64,000 nt of DNA. Source: Halothermothrix sp. GTDB lineage: Bacteria; Bacillota; Halanaerobiia; DY22613. Positions 3,402 through 48,075 of this stretch are shown piece after piece (within the stretch, counting starts at the first letter, position 1; every line of letters begins with the position of its first letter). The stretch spans positions 248,001 to 312,000 of the forward strand of contig JAENYK010000002.1 of assembly GCA_016841825.1 (NCBI GenBank), given 5' to 3'. A program made the position numbers and the translations under genes. The notes under the pieces were generated by a model that saw only the letters and a program-made list of their open reading frames with translations, ran no database searches and was not told the origin of the DNA.

Positions 3402-5057
3402 ATGAGTAATCTTGCAATTCAAGCATTGTTAGCAAGTGTTCCAATTATTATTGTCGGGATTCTGATGGTGGGTTTTGTCTGGCCATCTAAAAAAGCTATG
3501 CCTTTGGGATATTTGAGTGCATTAATTATTGGTCTTCTGGCCTGGAAGATGCCTTTTAAATGGGTGATAGCTTCTACTTTAAGCGGTGTAATGACTACAG
3601 TGAATATTCTTCTAATCGTTTTCGGGGCGATCTTAATTCTGAAAATTCTGCAATCCGGTGGCGCGGTAGACACTATAGGTGCTAGTCTGACAGGTGTCAC
3701 AAAAGACCGACGAGTACAGGTCTTACTGGTAGGTTGGTTACTGGTCACTTTTTTTGAAGGTGCAGCAGGATTTGGTACTCCGGCAGCAGTGGCAGCACCA
3801 TTGCTGGTAGGATTAGGATTCCCACCTCTGGTATCTGTAATTATTGCTCTGTTGGCTGACAGTACTCCTGTTAGTTTTGGTGCTGTAGGTATTCCAATCT
3901 GGGGTGGTTTTGCTGCATTGGAAAGTGTAGCACAAAGTGGAGGTACTTTTCAACAGTTTCTGGTGAGTATTGGTTTTTATACAGCAGTGATTCATGGCAT
4001 AATTGGAACTTTTGTTCCTTTATTTGCGGTTATGCTGATGACAAAAATTACCAGAGGCTCTTTTAGAGATGGTTTTAAGGTCTGGCCAGTTGCTGTTTTT
4101 GCTGGTGCTGCCTTTACTATTCCTTTTATGTTGATTTCAGCCTTTGTCGGTCCAGAACTTCCATCTCTCTTAGGTTCTTTAATCGCCATTCCGATTGTAG
4201 TATTTGTAATTTCTAAAGGTTGGCTCAATCCAAAAGATGAATGGTCTTTGCCGGCGAGGAAAGACTGGCCTGCTGAATGGGTGGGTTCTGTAGAACCTGG
4301 CGATGGTCAGGTAGAACTAAAGATGTCTATTTTTAAAGCATGGTTACCATATATCTTGATTGGTCTGATTCTCTTAATCAGTAGATTAGAATTCTTTGGT
4401 GTAGCTCCGATTTTGAAATCTTTTGTGATTAAATGGTCCAATATTTTGGGGACTAATTTGTCTAATAGTTTGGAACCTTTCTATAATCCTGGAATCTTTC
4501 CATTTATCTTTATTGCTTTATTGATGCCATTATTTTTCGGTATGGATAAAAAACAGGTGAAAACTGCGTGGAGGGATACCTTTAAAGCGGTTACACCGGC
4601 AGCCATTGCCCTGGTTTTCACTCTGGGTATGGTACGAATAATGATGGATTCCGGTTTAGCTGTTAATGGCGATTCAATGTTGATTGTTCTGGCAAAGGCA
4701 GCTTCCAGTATAGTCGGTCAAGCATGGTTATTCTTTGCACCATTTGTAGGCATTTTAGGTGCGTTTATCTCTGGTAGTAACACGGTTTCTGACATAATGT
4801 TTGGCAATTTCCAGTTTGCAACTGCGGTCCAGGTGGGAACTTCTAAAACCATGGCTCTGGCACTACAAGCTATTGGCGGCGCGGCAGGTAATATGATCTG
4901 TGTGCATAATGTAGTGGCAGCCTGTGCTACTGTAGGAATTGTGGGTAAAGAAGGTCTGGTTATTCGAAAGAATCTTATACCAGCACTGCTCTACGGGCTA
5001 TTGGCAGGAATTATCGGCTGGATTATTGTTAGTGTATTTCAGATAGGGTTGTACTAA
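3402..5057 (+). CDS. lctP: L-lactate permease (LctP family)
   Basis: This 551-residue integral membrane protein has the length and hydrophobic profile of LctP/LldP lactate permeases (about 12-14 membrane segments), which take up lactate with protons. Family hallmarks seen are [24 protein letters not shown], cited in part ([11 protein letters not shown]), the [15 protein letters not shown] stretch, and [12 protein letters not shown] with [18 protein letters not shown] near the C-terminus. A strong GGAGG lies 8-12 bases before the ATG. The regulator gene precedes it and the EtfBA-dehydrogenase genes follow after a gap containing a hairpin and a new promoter. It should supply lactate to the oxidation complex encoded downstream. 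Confidence 0.93.
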
Positions 5058-5232: not shown

Positions 5233-6021
5233 TTGGATATTTTAGTATGTATTAAACAAGTTCCTGAGACAAATGAGGTAGAAGTAGATGAGAAAACCGG
5301 AGTGCTGAAACGTGATGGAATTGATTCAAAGATGAATCCTTATGATTTATACGCGATTGAGACAGCATTACAACTAAAAGAAGAGCAGGGAGGTAGGGTG
5401 ACTGTCCTTACCATGGGTCCCCCACAGGCAGAAGAGATTATTAGAGAAGGCTTTATGATGGGAGCAGATGCGGGATATATTCTTTCAGATCGCAGATTTG
5501 CCGGTGCAGACACGCTGGCCACCGGTTATACATTGGCATCTGGAGTCAAAAAGATTGGCGAGTTTGATCTGCTAATATGCGGCATGCAGACGACTGATGG
5601 TGATACAGCACAGGTTGGGCCTGCAATTGCAGAGATTTTGCAGATTCCCCATGTTGCTTATGTGAATAAGATAGAAGGTGTTACAGAGACAAATCTCACT
5701 GTGCAGAAAGATATGGCTGATTCGATTGAACGGGTTGAAGTGTCTTTTCCGGCATTGATTACTGTAACCAAAGAGGTTAACCAGCCGCGCTTACCATCCT
5801 TTAAACGGAAGCTGGAGACCAGAGATTGGGAGATAAAGATGCTCACTTTAGATGATTTTGCAGATAGAAAAGAAGAGCATTATGGGCTAAAAGGTTCACC
5901 GACTCAGGTTGAGAGAATCTTTCCACCTGAATCTAACGTAGAGAAGACTACCTGGGAAGGTTCAGGTGAAGAATTGGCTGGCCTTATTTACAACAAGCTG
6001 AAGGAGATGAAATTCGTATGA
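5233..6021 (+). CDS. etfB: Electron transfer flavoprotein beta subunit (lactate dehydrogenase-associated)
   Basis: This 262-residue protein begins [12 protein letters not shown] and shows [26 protein letters not shown] and [26 protein letters not shown], cited in part (ADTLATG), all typical EtfB. EtfB binds one flavin and, in bifurcating complexes, NAD. I place the start at TTG 5233 because GAGGTG lies six bases upstream. The in-frame GTG at 5224 overlaps that ribosome binding site and has none of its own. Its stop overlaps the etfA start (ATGA), so the two subunits are translationally coupled. It matches LctB of the lactate dehydrogenase/Etf complex by context. Confidence 0.93.
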
Positions 6022-36175: not shown

Positions 36176-36527
36176 AAACTGATAGATACATATACTATCT
36201 TTAAAGGTGATGAAGGGAAGAGTAGGATTCCGGAAAGATTACAGAGAACCGTGGTTGCTGAGAGACGGTATCTTAAAGGTTTCTGAAGATGGTCCCGGAA
36301 CTGATGGGCTGAAGCTGGGCATGCTGCAGATTATTTGCACAAACTTAGTTAGTAGGTCTGTACGGATTGGCATCCGTTATTCGCTGCCAGAGTTTGAGTA
36401 ACAGGTTTGGACATTATTGAGTGAAAGAACTCACTGAGGTTAACAGTGTGAACTGTTGATAAACCAGGGTGGTACCGTGGGAATATGCTCCCGCCCCTTG
36501 TATAACTGCAAGGGGTGGGAGCTTTTT
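36176..36527 (+). promoter_or_regulatory. T-box riboswitch (probably methionyl-tRNA responsive) with terminator
   Basis: The leader has T-box Stem I elements (GATGAAGGGAAGAGTAG; AGAGAACCGTGG with GCTGAGAGACGG) and the hallmark T-box AGGGTGGTACCGTGG (36466-36480), whose TGGT can pair with an ACCA tRNA end. It ends in the terminator GCTCCCGCCCCTTG (36487-36500) paired with CAAGGGGTGGGAGC (36509-36522), then TTTTT. Uncharged tRNA should stabilise the antiterminator and allow read-through to metG. Methionine specificity is inferred from the genes behind it; an ATG is present in the candidate specifier area near 36321 but I did not fold Stem I. The 64-codon frame inside is a shadow. Confidence 0.92.
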
Positions 36528-42666: not shown

Positions 42667-43818
42667 ATGGATAAAAAAGTTGGTTTAAAGCAATTAGATT
42701 TAATATTGGATCGTACGCTTAAGACTTTAGAAGATGGTAAGACAGAAATTTTTGATATTGCAGAAAATGCCCGAAAGGAAGCTGAAAGAGTAAGAAGTGA
42801 ACTGGAGAAGATAAAAGCAGATACGACTGAGCTTATTCGTCAAGTTGATCAGATGGAAGTAATCAACAAGAAGGCTCGTTTGCGTCTTTTGGAGGTTAGT
42901 CGTGATTTTGAGTATTATACTGAAGATGAGATTAAAACAGCCTACGAGAAGGCTGAAGAGACTCTTGTCAAGTTGACTATCTTACGGGAGAAAGAAGAAA
43001 ATCTTCGACAGAAACGTAATGAGTTTGAGCGGCGGTTGATTAATATGGTAAATACTGTTCGCAAAGCTGAGAATCTGGTTGCCCAGGTTGGTATCGTAGT
43101 GGATTTCTTACTTGGGAGTTTGAATGATATTAGCTCACAAATGGAAGATTTACAACAAAGGAGTCAGCTAGGTATTCGGATTATCCAGGCTCAGGAAGAA
43201 GAGAGAAAGCGGGTTGCTCGTGAAATTCACGATGGACCTGCTCAATCCATTGCCAATGTAGTTTTTCGAAGTGAATATGTAGAGCGTCTTATGGATACTG
43301 ATATAGATGCAGCTAAGATTGAGTTAAGCGATTTGAAAACTCAAGTACGTAATACTTTACAGGAGATTCGAAAGATTATCTTTGATTTGAGGCCGATGGC
43401 TTTAGATGATCTAGGGTTGATTCCTACATTGCGCAGATATTTGGATAAATTTTATCAGAGAACAGGTCTTCGAACTGACATGATGGTTATCGGTTCAGAA
43501 AAAAGATTGCCCCAGTCGATTGAGGTAACAATATTTAGGATTGTTCAGGAAGCTTTGAATAACGTACATAAGCATGCCCGAACACAAAAGGCAAAAGTGA
43601 AGATTGAGTTCCAACAGAGTCATATAAATCTGGTTATTGAAGACCGGGGGGTAGGTTTTAAGTTAGAAAAAGCACTTACCATGACAAGCGAAAGAGAAAA
43701 TTATGGTTTATTAAGTCTGGGTGAACGTGCGGAACTGGTAGGTGGGGAATTAAAAATTCTTACTTCTCCTGGTAAAGGGACGAAGATAATTGGAAAAATA
43801 CCGATAAGAAAGGAGTAA
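42667..43818 (+). CDS. degS: DegS-like cytoplasmic sensor histidine kinase
   Basis: 383 residues with no membrane segment. The N-terminal ~175 residues form a long coiled coil (DegS sensor domain, rich in Glu, Lys and Arg heptads). HisKA_3 follows with EERKRVAREIHDGPAQSIANVVFRSEYVERL, in part REIHDGPAQSIANV (H phosphorylated), then a HATPase domain with ALNNVHKHA, DRGVGFK and YGLLSLGERAELVGG. Length and layout match Bacillus DegS (385 residues), which controls exoenzymes, motility and biofilm. The next gene encodes the DegU partner and starts 5 bases after the stop. AAAAGGGG precedes the ATG. Confidence 0.9.
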   Translation: MDKKVGLKQLDLILDRTLKTLEDGKTEIFDIAENARKEAERVRSELEKIKADTTELIRQVDQMEVINKKARLRLLEVSRDFEYYTEDEIKTAYEKAEETLVKLTILREKEENLRQKRNEFERRLINMVNTVRKAENLVAQVGIVVDFLLGSLNDISSQMEDLQQRSQLGIRIIQAQEEERKRVAREIHDGPAQSIANVVFRSEYVERLMDTDIDAAKIELSDLKTQVRNTLQEIRKIIFDLRPMALDDLGLIPTLRRYLDKFYQRTGLRTDMMVIGSEKRLPQSIEVTIFRIVQEALNNVHKHARTQKAKVKIEFQQSHINLVIEDRGVGFKLEKALTMTSERENYGLLSLGERAELVGGELKILTSPGKGTKIIGKIPIRKE

Positions 43819-43823
43819 TGTTC

Positions 43824-44468
43824 ATGGATAAAATAAAAGTTCTAGTTGCAGATGATCATCTTCTGGTAAGAGAAGGCATTTGTAAACTATTAGAATTAGA
43901 TGATAAAATTACAGTTATTGGCGAGGCAATAGATGGAGAAGACGCTGTTAATAAAGCAAGAAAACTGCAGCCCAATCTAATTTTGATGGATTTGAATATG
44001 CCTAAATTGAGCGGTATTCAGGCTGCTGAACAGATTAAAACAATTTATCCTGAGATCAAAGTAATTATTTTGACGATTCATGATGATGAAGAATATGTTT
44101 TTGAAGTTTTAAAAGCTGGTGCTGAGGGATACTTACAAAAGGATGTTAGTGCGGAGGAACTAAGGTCTGCACTCCAGATGGTTTCTAATGGTGAAACCTT
44201 ATTTCCGGCCTCAGTAATCAATCGTGTAATGGGAAGAGAAAGGTCGAAACCTGAAGATACCATTGAAGATATCTTGACTGATCGAGAGATAGAAGTGTTG
44301 GAAATGATGGCTAAAGGAAATAATAATCGCACAATTGGAGAAAAATTGTTTATTAGCGAAAAAACGGTTAAAAATCATGTGAGCAGTATCTTAAAAAAGT
44401 TGGAAGTGAATGACAGAACACAGGCTGTTATTTATGCAATTAAGAAAGGTTGGGTAAAAGTTAAATAA
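43824..44468 (+). CDS. degU: DegU-like NarL/LuxR-family response regulator
   Basis: 214 residues: receiver domain with ADDHLLVREG, phospho-acceptor in LILMDLNMPKLSG, LTIHDD and the lysine of LQKDVS; LuxR-type helix-turn-helix at about 145-210 with LTDREIEVLEMMAKGNNNRTIGEKLFISEKTVKNHVSSILKKL, in part EKTVKNHVSSIL. I start at ATG 43824, 8 bases after AAAGGAG; ATG 43818 is only 2 bases from that site. It is the partner of DegS. Since DegSU controls the switch between motility and sessile life in Bacillus, its place next to a c-di-GMP riboswitch RNA is suggestive but not proof of a functional link. Confidence 0.92.
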   Translation: MDKIKVLVADDHLLVREGICKLLELDDKITVIGEAIDGEDAVNKARKLQPNLILMDLNMPKLSGIQAAEQIKTIYPEIKVIILTIHDDEEYVFEVLKAGAEGYLQKDVSAEELRSALQMVSNGETLFPASVINRVMGRERSKPEDTIEDILTDREIEVLEMMAKGNNNRTIGEKLFISEKTVKNHVSSILKKLEVNDRTQAVIYAIKKGWVKVK

Positions 44469-44523: not shown

Positions 44524-44532
44524 TGGTAAGAT
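44524..44532 (+). promoter_or_regulatory. Possible extended -10 promoter of the riboswitch transcript
   Basis: TGG-TAAGAT (44524-44532) lies 30 bases upstream of the aptamer. The -35 region is poor, so this call is weak; read-through from degSU is the alternative. Confidence 0.35.
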
Positions 44533-44559
44533 AATGACATGAAGTACACAGCTCACAGA

Positions 44560-44645
44560 TGAAAAAGGCAAACCTATTGAAAGATAGGGACGCAAAGCCA
44601 AGGGTCTAAGGTGAGAGATTTCTCCGCTATGACAGCCGGTTGCCA
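44560..44645 (+). promoter_or_regulatory. c-di-GMP-I (GEMM) riboswitch aptamer
   Basis: The conserved core is all present: GGCAAACC (44567-44574), the GAAA tetraloop (44579-44582), GGGACGCAAAGCCA (44587-44600), GGGTCTAAGG as tetraloop receptor, then CTATGACAGCCGG and GGTTGCC (44638-44644) closing P1. This class binds cyclic di-GMP with very high affinity and usually controls motility, adhesion or envelope genes. The next protein gene on the strand begins 1.2 kb later; between lies the non-coding RNA region at 44721-45505. Confidence 0.95.
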
Positions 44646-44720
44646 TCAAAAAAAGGCAGGTCTATTCATGCACACAATTTCGACCTATTCTTTTGGCAAC
44701 CCAGGAGAATGGGTTTTTTT
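44646..44720 (+). terminator. Expression platform of the c-di-GMP riboswitch: terminator and competing antiterminator
   Basis: A terminator hairpin AACCCA (44698-44703), GGAGAA loop, TGGGTT (44710-44715) is followed by TTTTT. The 5' arm overlaps GGCAACC (44695-44701), which is perfectly complementary to GGTTGCC (44638-44644), the P1 3' strand. With c-di-GMP bound, P1 is held and the terminator can form; without it, GGTTGCC:GGCAACC breaks the terminator. The sequence therefore predicts an OFF switch: c-di-GMP stops transcription of the downstream RNA. This polarity is inferred from pairing only. Confidence 0.75.
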
Positions 44721-45504
44721 ATTCCCATCTCCCAAGTCTGTGGGTGCTATTTTAAAGAAGAATGGAGGTGAACTTGGTTTAATTAGTAACTTATAGCACT
44801 ATTAAATTGCAGAATATAGTCAAAATTTAATCGTATTTGGATTAATAATAGTATTAGTTAGCACTTTGGTGGTCGGTCACTTATTATAGTGAACGGCAGC
44901 CTGTGAAATTTAATGATATAGCTGACAGTTGTAATTTCACTTACGGTGTAAGTCCTCCAACTATTAGCACCGGAGTGGATGTCCTCCAACTTAAAACACC
45001 ATGATGCATTCCTCCAACTTTAGCATCAGGTGTGATGTCCTCTAACTAAGAATGCTGGAGCTATATCAAAACAACAAATTGTGCATGCAAGACCTTGTTC
45101 TCAGGTTCCTCCCCTGAGTGCAGGTGGAAAAATGTACGGAAGAATTGGAATCCCCCTCGATTTTTAGGAAGGGAATCTTGGGTCCTCCTCCTCAAGTAAA
45201 AACAATTGGAGAAGAACTCATAGTTGGAATCCTCCACTGACTATGGGTTAACGGAAAATGAATTGTTAATTGCAGTGTTTTATTAATGGGAATTGAAATT
45301 AATTGCAGACTTGAGGATGTCCTCCCTCAAGAGTTTAAATTAATTGCACGTTACACATTGAGGAGTATCAAGTGTTGGTATGTTACCCGAGATGTCCTCC
45401 TTGGGTAACATGTCCTCTGTTAAGAAATCCTTAAAAATGAATCCTCTTAGAAACCTCCTCTAAGGATAAGAACCCTACTTGAAAAAGTGGGGTTCTTATT
45501 TTAT
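44721..45504 (+). ncRNA. Large hairpin-rich RNA with repeated CCUCC (anti-Shine-Dalgarno) loops
   Basis: No credible coding frame exists here. From 44944 on, hairpin follows hairpin, and most show TCCTCC or TCCTCT in the loop. Motifs lie at 44953, 44982, 45010, 45038, 45107, 45183, 45230, 45320, 45395, 45413, 45442 and 45454. Clear stems include TGATGC/GCATCA (45002-45028), CTCAGG/CCTGAG (45100-45118), CATAGT/ACTATG (45219-45245), CTTGAGG/CCTCAAG (45310-45331) and ATGTTACCC/GGGTAACAT (45380-45411). Stems differ in sequence while loops agree (GATGTCCTCC, TCCTCCAACT), which points to selection on the loop. CCUCC equals the 16S anti-Shine-Dalgarno core. The transcript ends at the terminator 45468-45504, on the same strand as the riboswitch. 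Confidence 0.8.
45468..45504 (+). terminator. Intrinsic terminator of the hairpin-rich RNA
   Basis: AAGAACCCTACTT (45468-45480) pairs with AAGTGGGGTTCTT (45485-45497) over a GAAA loop, followed by ATTTTATT. The T-rich tail lies on the plus strand only, which fixes the direction of transcription. Confidence 0.88.
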
Positions 45505-45544
45505 TCAGAAGTATTTGGATCAAATAAATTAATGCCGATAACTA

Positions 45545-45654
45545 GGTTCTATGACTCCCACTTCTATAAGTGGGAACTGCCTTGGTCTATTTCAGGTGAG
45601 GTTGAATTCTCATCTGAAAGCCCCGAGGTTCAGCTTTAGCTGAACGAGTTCACT
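45545..45654 (+). repeat. HEARO/omega-RNA-like dispersed repeat, copy A
   Basis: First of three related ~100-110-nt elements (others at 49319 and 54095). It has three hairpins: TCCCACTT-CTAT-AAGTGGGA, TTCAGGTGAG/CTCATCTGAA and GTTCAGC-TTTA-GCTGAAC, followed by GAGTTCACT. The layout recalls the HEARO (IscB-associated) RNA or a TnpB-type element end; no associated ORF is present. The family name is from memory and tentative. Confidence 0.65.
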
Positions 45655-45746
45655 GGAGATAGAAAAAAAGAAGTAGTAGATTTGGGTGGAAAAATTACTC
45701 AGGCCAAAACAGTATGTATGGTAGTAATTAACAGGAGGTAAAAGCT

Positions 45747-45882: not shown

Positions 45883-48075
45883 TTGAGATTACGAATCACA
45901 GCACTCATTTTACTACTATTTGTTATACTGTTTCCCCTTCGAGTATTGGCTCTGGAATTGAACTTTGAAGGTCAAAAAGATTTTTGGACAGATGTTTATT
46001 TACAGATTATAGCAGATGAGTTAACTGGTCAGAAGACTTATCTAACAGACTGGTCATATGGACAGTCTTTTGATCTGCATTTTCAAGGAGAAGATGAGAT
46101 GAGCTACGTTAGGGGGTATATTACAGACAACCCCCAATTGATGGATCAAACTTTTCTAGATGTGCTAATCAAAGATTATACCTTACAATGGAACAATTAT
46201 GATCAGGCTTTTGCGGTACCATCCTGGTTTAACATGAATCAAAAATTTACCGGATTAAGGGCTGGATTTATGAACTCTACTGATCGAATTAACCTGAGCG
46301 GTGTGCAGGGTGATATGATCTTACGAGAAGATGATATTCTGATCACTCCAGGCGCAGAGAAGTATGGGATTAGTCTGTTTTATGCACCTGTGTCTACCGA
46401 ATCGTTTCAAATCTGGCTAGATAATCGTGAATTGACTTACTATGAAGACTATGTCGTAGATTATAATTTAGGTATTGTTCAACTTAAATTTCCCGTTGTT
46501 AAACCTGGAGTTTTGCATGTGAAATATTTTCAGGAGGGCCAGGGGTATCTGGTCTTTGGTGGGAGATATGATCATGCTTTTTCTCCCAAGTTAGAAGGTG
46601 GGGGATTGATGATGCTGGCCCGAGGTGAAGGGATTAATTATGGTCTACTCGGTAGTGAATGGATCTATCATTATAAACCATGGTGGACTATGGAGTTGAA
46701 TGCTGGATTGGTTCTGCAGACAGCTAACCCTCTGGAAGGCGATCTGGTATCAACTGGTTATTATAATGAGTTAACAGGTGATCCTGTAGTCAATGATGAA
46801 GATGACCTGGTGAGTGTTCAGGAAGATATGAACGAAAAGATTAGTGATAATCTGTTATCTGGTGAAATTGACGATGGATGGAAAGATTCTCTCCTAATCG
46901 ACACTAACTGGCGGATTGCCAATTACTTTGAATTACCGGGAATGGAGATGATGATAGATTATCAGGTGATAGAAAATAATATGCAAAATCTGTTATTTGG
47001 TGGCTGGGAAGGGAAAAAATTGAGTATTAGCGGACAATATGAAAAAGACAACTTCTTTATCCGTCACCAGCAAAATCACCAATGGACACTTGATAATTAT
47101 CTTTTTCAGCGAGATGGAGAATTAGAGATGGTGTATTTTACTGAACACTGGATACCATATCTTTACTATTCTCTACAAGAGCAATCTGGGTATGTTAGTC
47201 AGCATGGAATTGCTGAGTTAGGGTATATGATCGATCTGATGGAGGATCTGGGATCAATGACTTATCAACTGGGAGTGGATATAGAGACATCACCGGAAGA
47301 AGGTATTTGGCATGGTTTAGAACCTTATCTGGGTGTTAGATATGATAAAAATGTTGAAGATAGTTTGGGAGCACGTATCTATGGGCAGAGAGGTGGTAAA
47401 TTTGCTCAATTGATAGTTGATGGTAAATGGAGTGAAGGGCCTTTAGAATGGAAAGGTAATCTGCACTATCTTCCCGAATATTATCGGATTGAGCAGGGGG
47501 TTGTTTGGAATGATCTTTCTGTAGACGTTAATTTGAATAGTATTTATCGAAAGTATTTTGCTGATGATGATGAATATTTGAATTTGGAGTTGAATTTGGA
47601 TTGGTCTACTTTTCTGGAAGAACAGGCGATGGTCTGGGTGAGTCTTTTACGGGATAGGATAGATGGTGAGTTAGAGAGAAATTATAAAATAGGTTTTGAA
47701 AAAGCTATTCTGGATAATTTGACAGGGTATGGAGAGATAAGTATAGGAGATATTGAACAGTACTATTCTGGGGGAATCCGGGGAAGTCGGGGTCCAATTG
47801 ATTATGATGTGAATTATACCTGGTCTAAATCTCCTGATCTTATAGGTAGTCTGGATATATTGACTCAGAAGAATAAAGTGGCTTTCTCAGCGGGGATTTT
47901 GGATTTTTGGAACACTTATGGTGAAGTAGAAATAGATAATTTGGGTCAATGGCAAGGTGATTTGGGTGTGCAATACCCAATTCAACCACAGTTGGATGTA
48001 GGTCTTCAATATTCGGTAGATAAGATTGTAGATTATAGTCATCAGATGACTTTACGGACAGTATATCATTTTTAA
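45883..48075 (+). CDS. Large outer-membrane beta-barrel-like protein
   Basis: 730 residues with a signal peptide (hydrophobic 5-22, cleavage near VLALELNFEG). The mature part is rich in alternating hydrophobic/polar strands with many Tyr, Trp, Asp and Gly residues and ends in the aromatic YHF, the C-terminal phenylalanine expected for outer-membrane barrel insertion. A small domain at about 185-225 (YYEDYVVDYNLGIVQLKFPV, in part DYNLGIVQLKF) is seen in other surface proteins. I do not recognise a transport class. The start is TTG with AAGGGGTG upstream. Together with the next gene it forms a small operon of outer-membrane proteins behind the c-di-GMP RNA. Confidence 0.72.
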   Translation: MRLRITALILLLFVILFPLRVLALELNFEGQKDFWTDVYLQIIADELTGQKTYLTDWSYGQSFDLHFQGEDEMSYVRGYITDNPQLMDQTFLDVLIKDYTLQWNNYDQAFAVPSWFNMNQKFTGLRAGFMNSTDRINLSGVQGDMILREDDILITPGAEKYGISLFYAPVSTESFQIWLDNRELTYYEDYVVDYNLGIVQLKFPVVKPGVLHVKYFQEGQGYLVFGGRYDHAFSPKLEGGGLMMLARGEGINYGLLGSEWIYHYKPWWTMELNAGLVLQTANPLEGDLVSTGYYNELTGDPVVNDEDDLVSVQEDMNEKISDNLLSGEIDDGWKDSLLIDTNWRIANYFELPGMEMMIDYQVIENNMQNLLFGGWEGKKLSISGQYEKDNFFIRHQQNHQWTLDNYLFQRDGELEMVYFTEHWIPYLYYSLQEQSGYVSQHGIAELGYMIDLMEDLGSMTYQLGVDIETSPEEGIWHGLEPYLGVRYDKNVEDSLGARIYGQRGGKFAQLIVDGKWSEGPLEWKGNLHYLPEYYRIEQGVVWNDLSVDVNLNSIYRKYFADDDEYLNLELNLDWSTFLEEQAMVWVSLLRDRIDGELERNYKIGFEKAILDNLTGYGEISIGDIEQYYSGGIRGSRGPIDYDVNYTWSKSPDLIGSLDILTQKNKVAFSAGILDFWNTYGEVEIDNLGQWQGDLGVQYPIQPQLDVGLQYSVDKIVDYSHQMTLRTVYHF

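Follow-up and report, generated by a model that had tools for sequence, protein, structure and literature searches.

The window analyzed here, a stretch of 64,000 nucleotides from a Halothermothrix sp. genome, contains in this order degS, degU, a c-di-GMP-I riboswitch and a dense array of TCCTC[CT] motifs. In the list below, G001 denotes a genome of a sister genus, the sole other member of this bacterial family (f1) among the genomes searched.

42667-43818 (+): DegS sensor kinase gene, upstream of the riboswitch (Pfam DegS, 1.5e-53; HisKA_3)
43818-44468 (+): DegU-like response regulator gene, upstream of the riboswitch (Pfam Response_reg, GerE)
44524-44532 (+): possible extended -10 promoter, TGG-TAAGAT, suggested by alignment only
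44557-44647 (+): c-di-GMP-I riboswitch aptamer (RF01051, 77.5 bits, gathering score 35, model positions 1-87)
44638-44701 (+): antiterminator, GGTTGCC (44638-44644, the aptamer 3' strand) with GGCAACC (44695-44701), from pairing analysis
44682-44722 (+): intrinsic riboswitch terminator with a stem of 15 bp and a T tract (terminator scan; core the same in G001)
44764-44771 (+): Shine-Dalgarno (SD)-like GGAGGTGA in the RNA leader, read from the sequence; G001 counterpart AAGGAGGTG
44944-45466 (+): array of 13 TCCTC[CT] copies, at 44953, 44982, 45010, 45038, 45107, 45183, 45186, 45230, 45320, 45395, 45413, 45442 and 45456 (motif count)

About 375 nt beyond the array, on the same plus strand, follows an outer-membrane-type (OMP-type) gene (45883-48075). 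The interval at 45545-45660 resembles an IS200/IS605-type end or the remnant of a guide RNA in that it holds several short inverted repeats (CCCACTTCTATAAGTGGG, GTTCAGCTTTAGCTGAAC), and a T-box leader lies further upstream in the window at 36201-36501 (RF00230, 109.5 bits). In other genomes (family f3), a c-di-GMP-I riboswitch is placed directly upstream of degS, not downstream of degU (G015:C1:239557-239640; G006:C2:196569-196652), which connects c-di-GMP and DegSU in a second way.

The aptamer scores above the RF01051 gathering threshold over the full model. The partner of its GGUUGCC, GGCAACC, sits at the top of the terminator, and this pairing is lengthened by AGGTC/GACCT and, in G001, additionally by AAAGAG/CTCTTT. 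Because the antiterminator of the window uses bases of both the aptamer P3 base and the terminator, it excludes both, and the predicted logic is therefore that ligand turns the RNA off and that the RNA is on when ligand is absent. The sequence supports gating of the array RNA by the riboswitch, which is predicted to be an OFF switch; the fold energies (for the free fold -47.0 in the window and -73.4 in G001, for the antiterminator -41.3 and -73.1) do not prove the direction of switching. The candidate promoter was unflagged by a consensus scan, and the aligned place in G001 reads TGT-TATTAT. A perfect SD-like GGAGGTG(A) is kept in both f1 RNA leaders (44764-44771; G001 L003 3238-3248), with no downstream open reading frame (ORF) beyond an overlapping four-codon GTG frame; it could be a cis pairing partner of the CCUCC loops or the relic of a lost gene.

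The array is exceptional within its surroundings, with 13 plus-strand copies of TCCTC[CT] in 523 nt compared to 12 on that strand in all the other 63.5 kb of the window, where the richest other 523-nt stretch holds two on the plus or four on the minus strand. Dinucleotide shuffles of the region average 0.67 copies and reached 13 in none of 1000. The motif positions in a preliminary description of this DNA were all correct, each being TCCTCC, TCCTCT or CCTCCTCT on the plus strand, and the one at 45183, TCCTCCTCC, consists of two overlapping copies. The loop sequences that it described as shared, GATGTCCTC[CT] and TCCTC[CT]AACT, were also borne out. No plus-strand ORF of at least 60 amino acids was found in the array. 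The region folds, by prediction, better than its shuffles (z -4.9) and resolves into the following elements.

44945-45047 (+): the first four units, diverged tandem hairpin repeats of 28-29 nt with TCCTC[CT]AACT (repeat comparison)
45080-45118 (+): conserved core TGTGCATGCAAGACCTT and hairpin CTCAGG-TTCCTCC-CCTGAG (alignment with G001, folding)
45183-45195 (+): TCCTCCTCCTCAA, the same in G001 (alignment)
45219-45245 (+): hairpin CATAGT...TCCTCC...ACTATG (alignment with G001, predicted fold)
45267-45348 (+): linker TAATTG[AC]A, repeated at 45267, 45300 and 45341 (motif count)
45310-45331 (+): hairpin CTTGAGG-ATGTCCTC-CCTCAAG (predicted fold)
45382-45409 (+): hairpin GTTACCC-GAGATGTCCTCCTT-GGGTAAC (predicted fold)
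45446-45464 (+): hairpin with loop AACCTCC (predicted fold)
45467-45507 (+): terminator-like hairpin AAGAACCCTACTT-GAAA-AAGTGGGGTTCTT, then ATTTTATT (predicted fold; counterpart in G001)

Placement of the motifs mostly in hairpin loops, as proposed earlier, holds in part: about 8 of the 13 sites are predicted to be mainly open, while about 5 are predicted to be largely paired (44982, 45038, 45183/45186 and 45413). Motif bases nevertheless have a mean predicted unpaired probability of 0.60, compared to 0.40 at shifted positions, and only 3 of 615 shifts score as high; loop exposure of the array motifs is thus supported by the sequence. The linker UAAUUG[AC]A occurs between hairpins three times in the window RNA and four times in the G001 RNA (L003 3470-3620), compared to shuffle means of 0.06 and 0.05. 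The terminator-like hairpin was missed by the consensus terminator scan, and the RNA presumably ends at it, near 45507. The preliminary description lacked this terminator as well as the riboswitch and the antiterminator/terminator pair, and it is because of these elements that the array appears to be a signal-gated RNA.

The array DNA was searched against 41 genomes, in which G001 was the only match. There, DegS (77% identical), DegU, riboswitch, RNA and terminator follow one another as in the window; the two riboswitch cores are almost the same, and the 45 nt around the terminator are identical in the alignment. The G001 RNA is shorter, lacks the four tandem units and retains TGTGCATGCAAGACCTT and TCCTCCTCCTCAA. 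Its hairpin loops, UUCCUCUU, AAAUCCCC and CUGUCCUC, are of CCUCC/CCCCC type on stems that mostly differ from those of the window, such that the loop motif is conserved while the stems change. Motif bases are again predicted to be exposed (unpaired 0.72, 0.42 expected; 1 of 335 shifts as high). The counterpart of the hairpin at 45219-45245, ATAATTGGG-CTGTCCTC-CCCAATTAT, shows one compensatory pair, from G-C to A-U; covariation is limited in this family since only two sequences are known. Between the array and the OMP-type gene, G001 has a CpaE/MinD-like gene and repeat elements. A MITE-like repeat with inverted ends (TGCAAAAAGCTAATTTT...) is present there in three copies within 5 kb (L003 about 763-962, 3666-3880 and 5363-5530), one of them directly behind the array, and the DUF362 gene beside degS, which is whole in the window, is broken there into two frames (L003 1-756).

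Other searches for f1 relatives gave no further array. The DegS/DegU neighborhoods of other class members contained none (four of those stretches being without a detected DegU), viral contigs held none, and the conserved 17-mer core matched elsewhere only with two mismatches. A TCCTCC-triplet pattern hit the window's genome at its own locus only, and many of its other matches across the class look like coding or simple sequence. A DegS protein query against GTDB contigs, a set that may leave out the window's own clade, returned three distant relatives.

Within the class, the sequence downstream of c-di-GMP-I riboswitches was read for about 90 of them, with about 20 to 40 further ones outside this count. 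Among 85 stretches of 420 nt outside f1, sense-strand CCTCC was absent from 72, occurred once in 8, and three to five times in 5. The last five, together with G010, belong to a single other bacterial family (f4: G004, G007, G010, G013, G016, and G019), whose six genomes have a different RNA of this design, in the order riboswitch, terminator, TCCTCCTTATCAATCCTCCTTTCTAA and a GC-rich terminator with a T run. In the five same-genus genomes the motif block UCCUCCUUAUCAAUCCUCCUUUCUAA is identical despite variable flanks; the G010 RNA has diverged, with a single change in the first motif and more changes beyond it. The block ends in a stretch, CCUCCUUUCUAA, identical to the 16S rRNA 3' tail as read in G001, and CCTCCTTTCTAA likewise equals that tail (GGATCACCTCCTTTCTAAGGA); no 16S ends were found in the assemblies of the f4 genomes themselves. 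The same five genomes carry a further hairpin after the block with an invariant CCCCUCC loop, in whose outer stem three pairs each occur as three Watson-Crick types and a fourth pair as two, in alignments made by hand and with MAFFT, so that stem covariation around a fixed loop is found in this family.

The genes flanking the f4 RNA lie on the opposite strand and resemble, with names assigned by eye, an amidohydrolase and a CDP-alcohol phosphatidyltransferase, the latter replaced by an unrelated ORF in G010; the only product of the riboswitch is therefore this RNA, with no protein gene. Transcripts cut after the 5' arm of the f4 terminator are predicted to fold an alternative stem, which would act as an antiterminator. 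The two linear f4 motifs have predicted exposures of 0.44-0.94 in five genomes and 0.24 in G010, and the CCCCUCC loop at least 0.87 in five of five. Apart from the riboswitch and the motif, no homology at the sequence level was noticed between the RNAs of f1 and f4, and separate origins are likely rather than proven.

Collectively, sequence and homology support the riboswitch, the alternative of terminator and antiterminator, the motif array, its synteny and a second family of the same design. On this basis we think it probable that the locus encodes a multivalent anti-SD noncoding RNA (ncRNA), made at low c-di-GMP, that blocks translation start on SD-bearing mRNAs; its transcription, the direction of the switch, translational repression and the set of targets are inferred as follows. 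The ncRNA gene would start downstream of degU, its 5' end being a c-di-GMP-I riboswitch that works by transcription attenuation. With c-di-GMP bound, the aptamer would hold GGUUGCC, the antiterminator would be blocked and transcription would stop near 44722. With ligand absent, GGUUGCC would pair with GGCAACC, the terminator would be lost, and an RNA of roughly 0.95 kb, ending near 45507, would be made. About a dozen UCCUC[CU] elements would be displayed on this full-length RNA, many in the loops of hairpins. The exposed ones would pair with GGAGG-type SDs and keep the 30S subunit from binding to several or many mRNAs, such that part of the proteome would be repressed at low c-di-GMP. The anti-SD interpretation had already been offered in the preliminary description and withstands two of the checks suggested there, in that G001 keeps the loop motif on changed stems and the f4 stem covaries; the f4 16S-tail stretch also speaks for it. 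By prediction, not all motifs are exposed. As for GGAGG being common among the genes of the window, it stands within 20 nt upstream of 13 of the 44 ORF starts, and GGAGG or GGAG/GAGG/AGGA within that distance of 25 of the 44.

Single array elements are predicted to bind start regions of the window at about -9 to -11 kcal/mol, compared to -12.8 for the 16S tail, and since by this prediction they bind SDs less well than that tail, an effect would need abundance or multivalency. Hfq, encoded in five of five genomes tested, counts in favor of the multivalent anti-SD RNA. Instead of many mRNAs, the RNA might pair mainly with one or two purine-rich RNAs (an sRNA or a few mRNAs), as a sponge or narrow regulator. 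An extended sequence common to the loops (GATGTCCTCC, TCCTCCAACT) would fit this, as would 10-nt matches in two plausible ribosome binding sites of the genome, those of a PlsC-like acyltransferase (L164) and an LptF/G-like permease (L186), named by eye and within chance. The loop extensions are not kept in G001, however, and the window's genome shows no excess of exact complements to the two shared loop motifs taken as 10-mers: matches number 8 and 16, of which 3 in each case are inside the array itself, compared to 10 and 31 for reversed-pattern controls. We consider so narrow a role improbable; the lack of enrichment also weighs against the multivalent anti-SD RNA. Going by these names, L164 and L186 would both serve envelope lipid functions. 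The array could also be merely a long 5' leader of the OMP-type gene at 45883-48075, with the riboswitch controlling that gene and the CCUCC hairpins modulating its translation or decay in cis. That gene follows on the same strand, and G001 too has an OMP-type gene downstream; yet a terminator-like hairpin closes the array in both species, the CpaE/MinD-like gene and repeats intervene in G001, and the f4 RNA has no same-strand gene after it, making such a leader a doubtful account of the array.

The main rival is a riboswitch-gated protein sponge of Rli55 type, in which hairpins and UAAUUG[AC]A linkers would titrate an RNA-binding protein and CCUCC would be its recognition element, not an antisense seed. 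It has a precedent in Rli55, a riboswitch-gated ncRNA that sequesters EutV (PMC8079631), and modular repeats combining a loop motif with a linker motif in both f1 species agree with it. Nevertheless, we judge it unlikely, given that no candidate protein was found, that the array matches no known RNA family, and that the exact 16S-tail stretch of the f4 RNA is part of a linear segment, a fact accounted for by pairing but not by a protein that binds hairpins. At this locus the general Rfam models, used in place of a dedicated ANTAR model, gave no match above threshold other than the c-di-GMP-I riboswitch, and at low threshold nothing else was credible either. The functional RNA could instead be transcribed from the minus strand and act in the manner of CsrB, as a decoy whose GGA loops titrate CsrA; the complement of the CCUCC loops is GGAGG, and CsrA is encoded in four of the genomes examined (G000, G001, G004, and G013). 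Such a decoy is disfavored and seems very improbable: riboswitch and terminators are on the plus strand, to which the T run of the f4 terminator is likewise confined, the scan gave no terminator on the minus strand past the end of the array on that strand, promoter-like sites were no more frequent than in shuffles, and G010, an incomplete metagenome-assembled genome, carries the f4 RNA without a CsrA match.

If the multivalent anti-SD RNA is accepted, its implications concern how c-di-GMP acts. Riboswitches for this ligand are usually taken to control, in cis, the gene that follows. In the two families described here, which differ in RNA architecture, their output seems to be an RNA that acts in trans; in one family this RNA reproduces the ribosomal anti-SD tail exactly, and these bacteria may use c-di-GMP to switch an RNA brake on protein synthesis. 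If true, a second messenger would be linked to translation initiation without a protein regulator. A bolder version is offered only tentatively: c-di-GMP would directly tune translation through riboswitch-gated RNAs with many anti-SD copies, which would brake a large fraction of the mRNAs that have an SD and would exist, with different architectures, in no fewer than two families of this bacterial class. The arrangement suggests a simple search for more such RNAs, namely for anti-SD motifs behind orphan riboswitches.

Among known RNAs, the CsrB/RsmZ decoys likewise consist of many hairpins with one short loop motif, in their case GGA loops that bind CsrA. The plus-strand loops of the array are CCUCC, not GGA, and the transcribed strand, as marked by the transcription signals, offers no such GGA loops, so that the earlier likeness to an inverse of CsrB is an analogy only. 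RF02278 (Betaproteobacteria toxic small RNA), a family discussed as anti-SD-like, has a weak local match at the array 3' end, and membership is rejected at 21 bits with a gathering score of 50 (E 0.2). Multiple C/U-rich anti-SD motifs predicted to be exposed in loops or linear stretches are a property that the array has in common with LhrC/NmsR-like anti-SD sRNAs. In the LhrC family of Listeria, several C/U-rich motifs in loops and single strands repress translation by pairing with SD regions, and the presence of more than one site is thought to permit binding of several mRNAs; these RNAs are 105-121 nt long, carry 2-3 UCCC motifs and are induced via LisRK or Sigma B (PMC8079631). The array, compared by description and not by sequence, differs in having about 13 UCCUC[CU] behind a c-di-GMP-I riboswitch, whereas no riboswitch is described for LhrC. 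Similarly, NmsRA/NmsRB of Neisseria lower target mRNA translation through a pair of anti-SD motifs, the first placed in a loop and the other single-stranded (PMC5362039), but have two motifs only and no described riboswitch, and are not related to the array RNA by anything compared here. The merRNA of Bdellovibrio is an ncRNA that contains a c-di-GMP riboswitch and is not followed by a conserved ORF (PMC3627812); again compared by description and not by sequence, it is a proposed c-di-GMP reservoir, not a gated anti-SD RNA. In Rli55 and AspocR of Listeria, a B12 riboswitch decides completion of the ncRNA by premature termination and is OFF with ligand; Rli55 sequesters EutV through an ANTAR element and AspocR is antisense to pocR (PMC8079631). 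These share with the array the form of a riboswitch-gated regulatory ncRNA, and differ in their B12 ligand and in that no repeated anti-SD motifs are described for them. The Rli55-like combination of riboswitch and ncRNA without a co-regulated gene is found in f4, while the f1 array has its own terminator-like end and a gene follows later. Literature text searches, which mostly did not cover subscription papers, returned no report of an anti-SD sRNA combined with riboswitch gating. Taken separately, anti-SD sRNAs, riboswitch-gated ncRNAs and an orphan c-di-GMP-riboswitch ncRNA are each already known.
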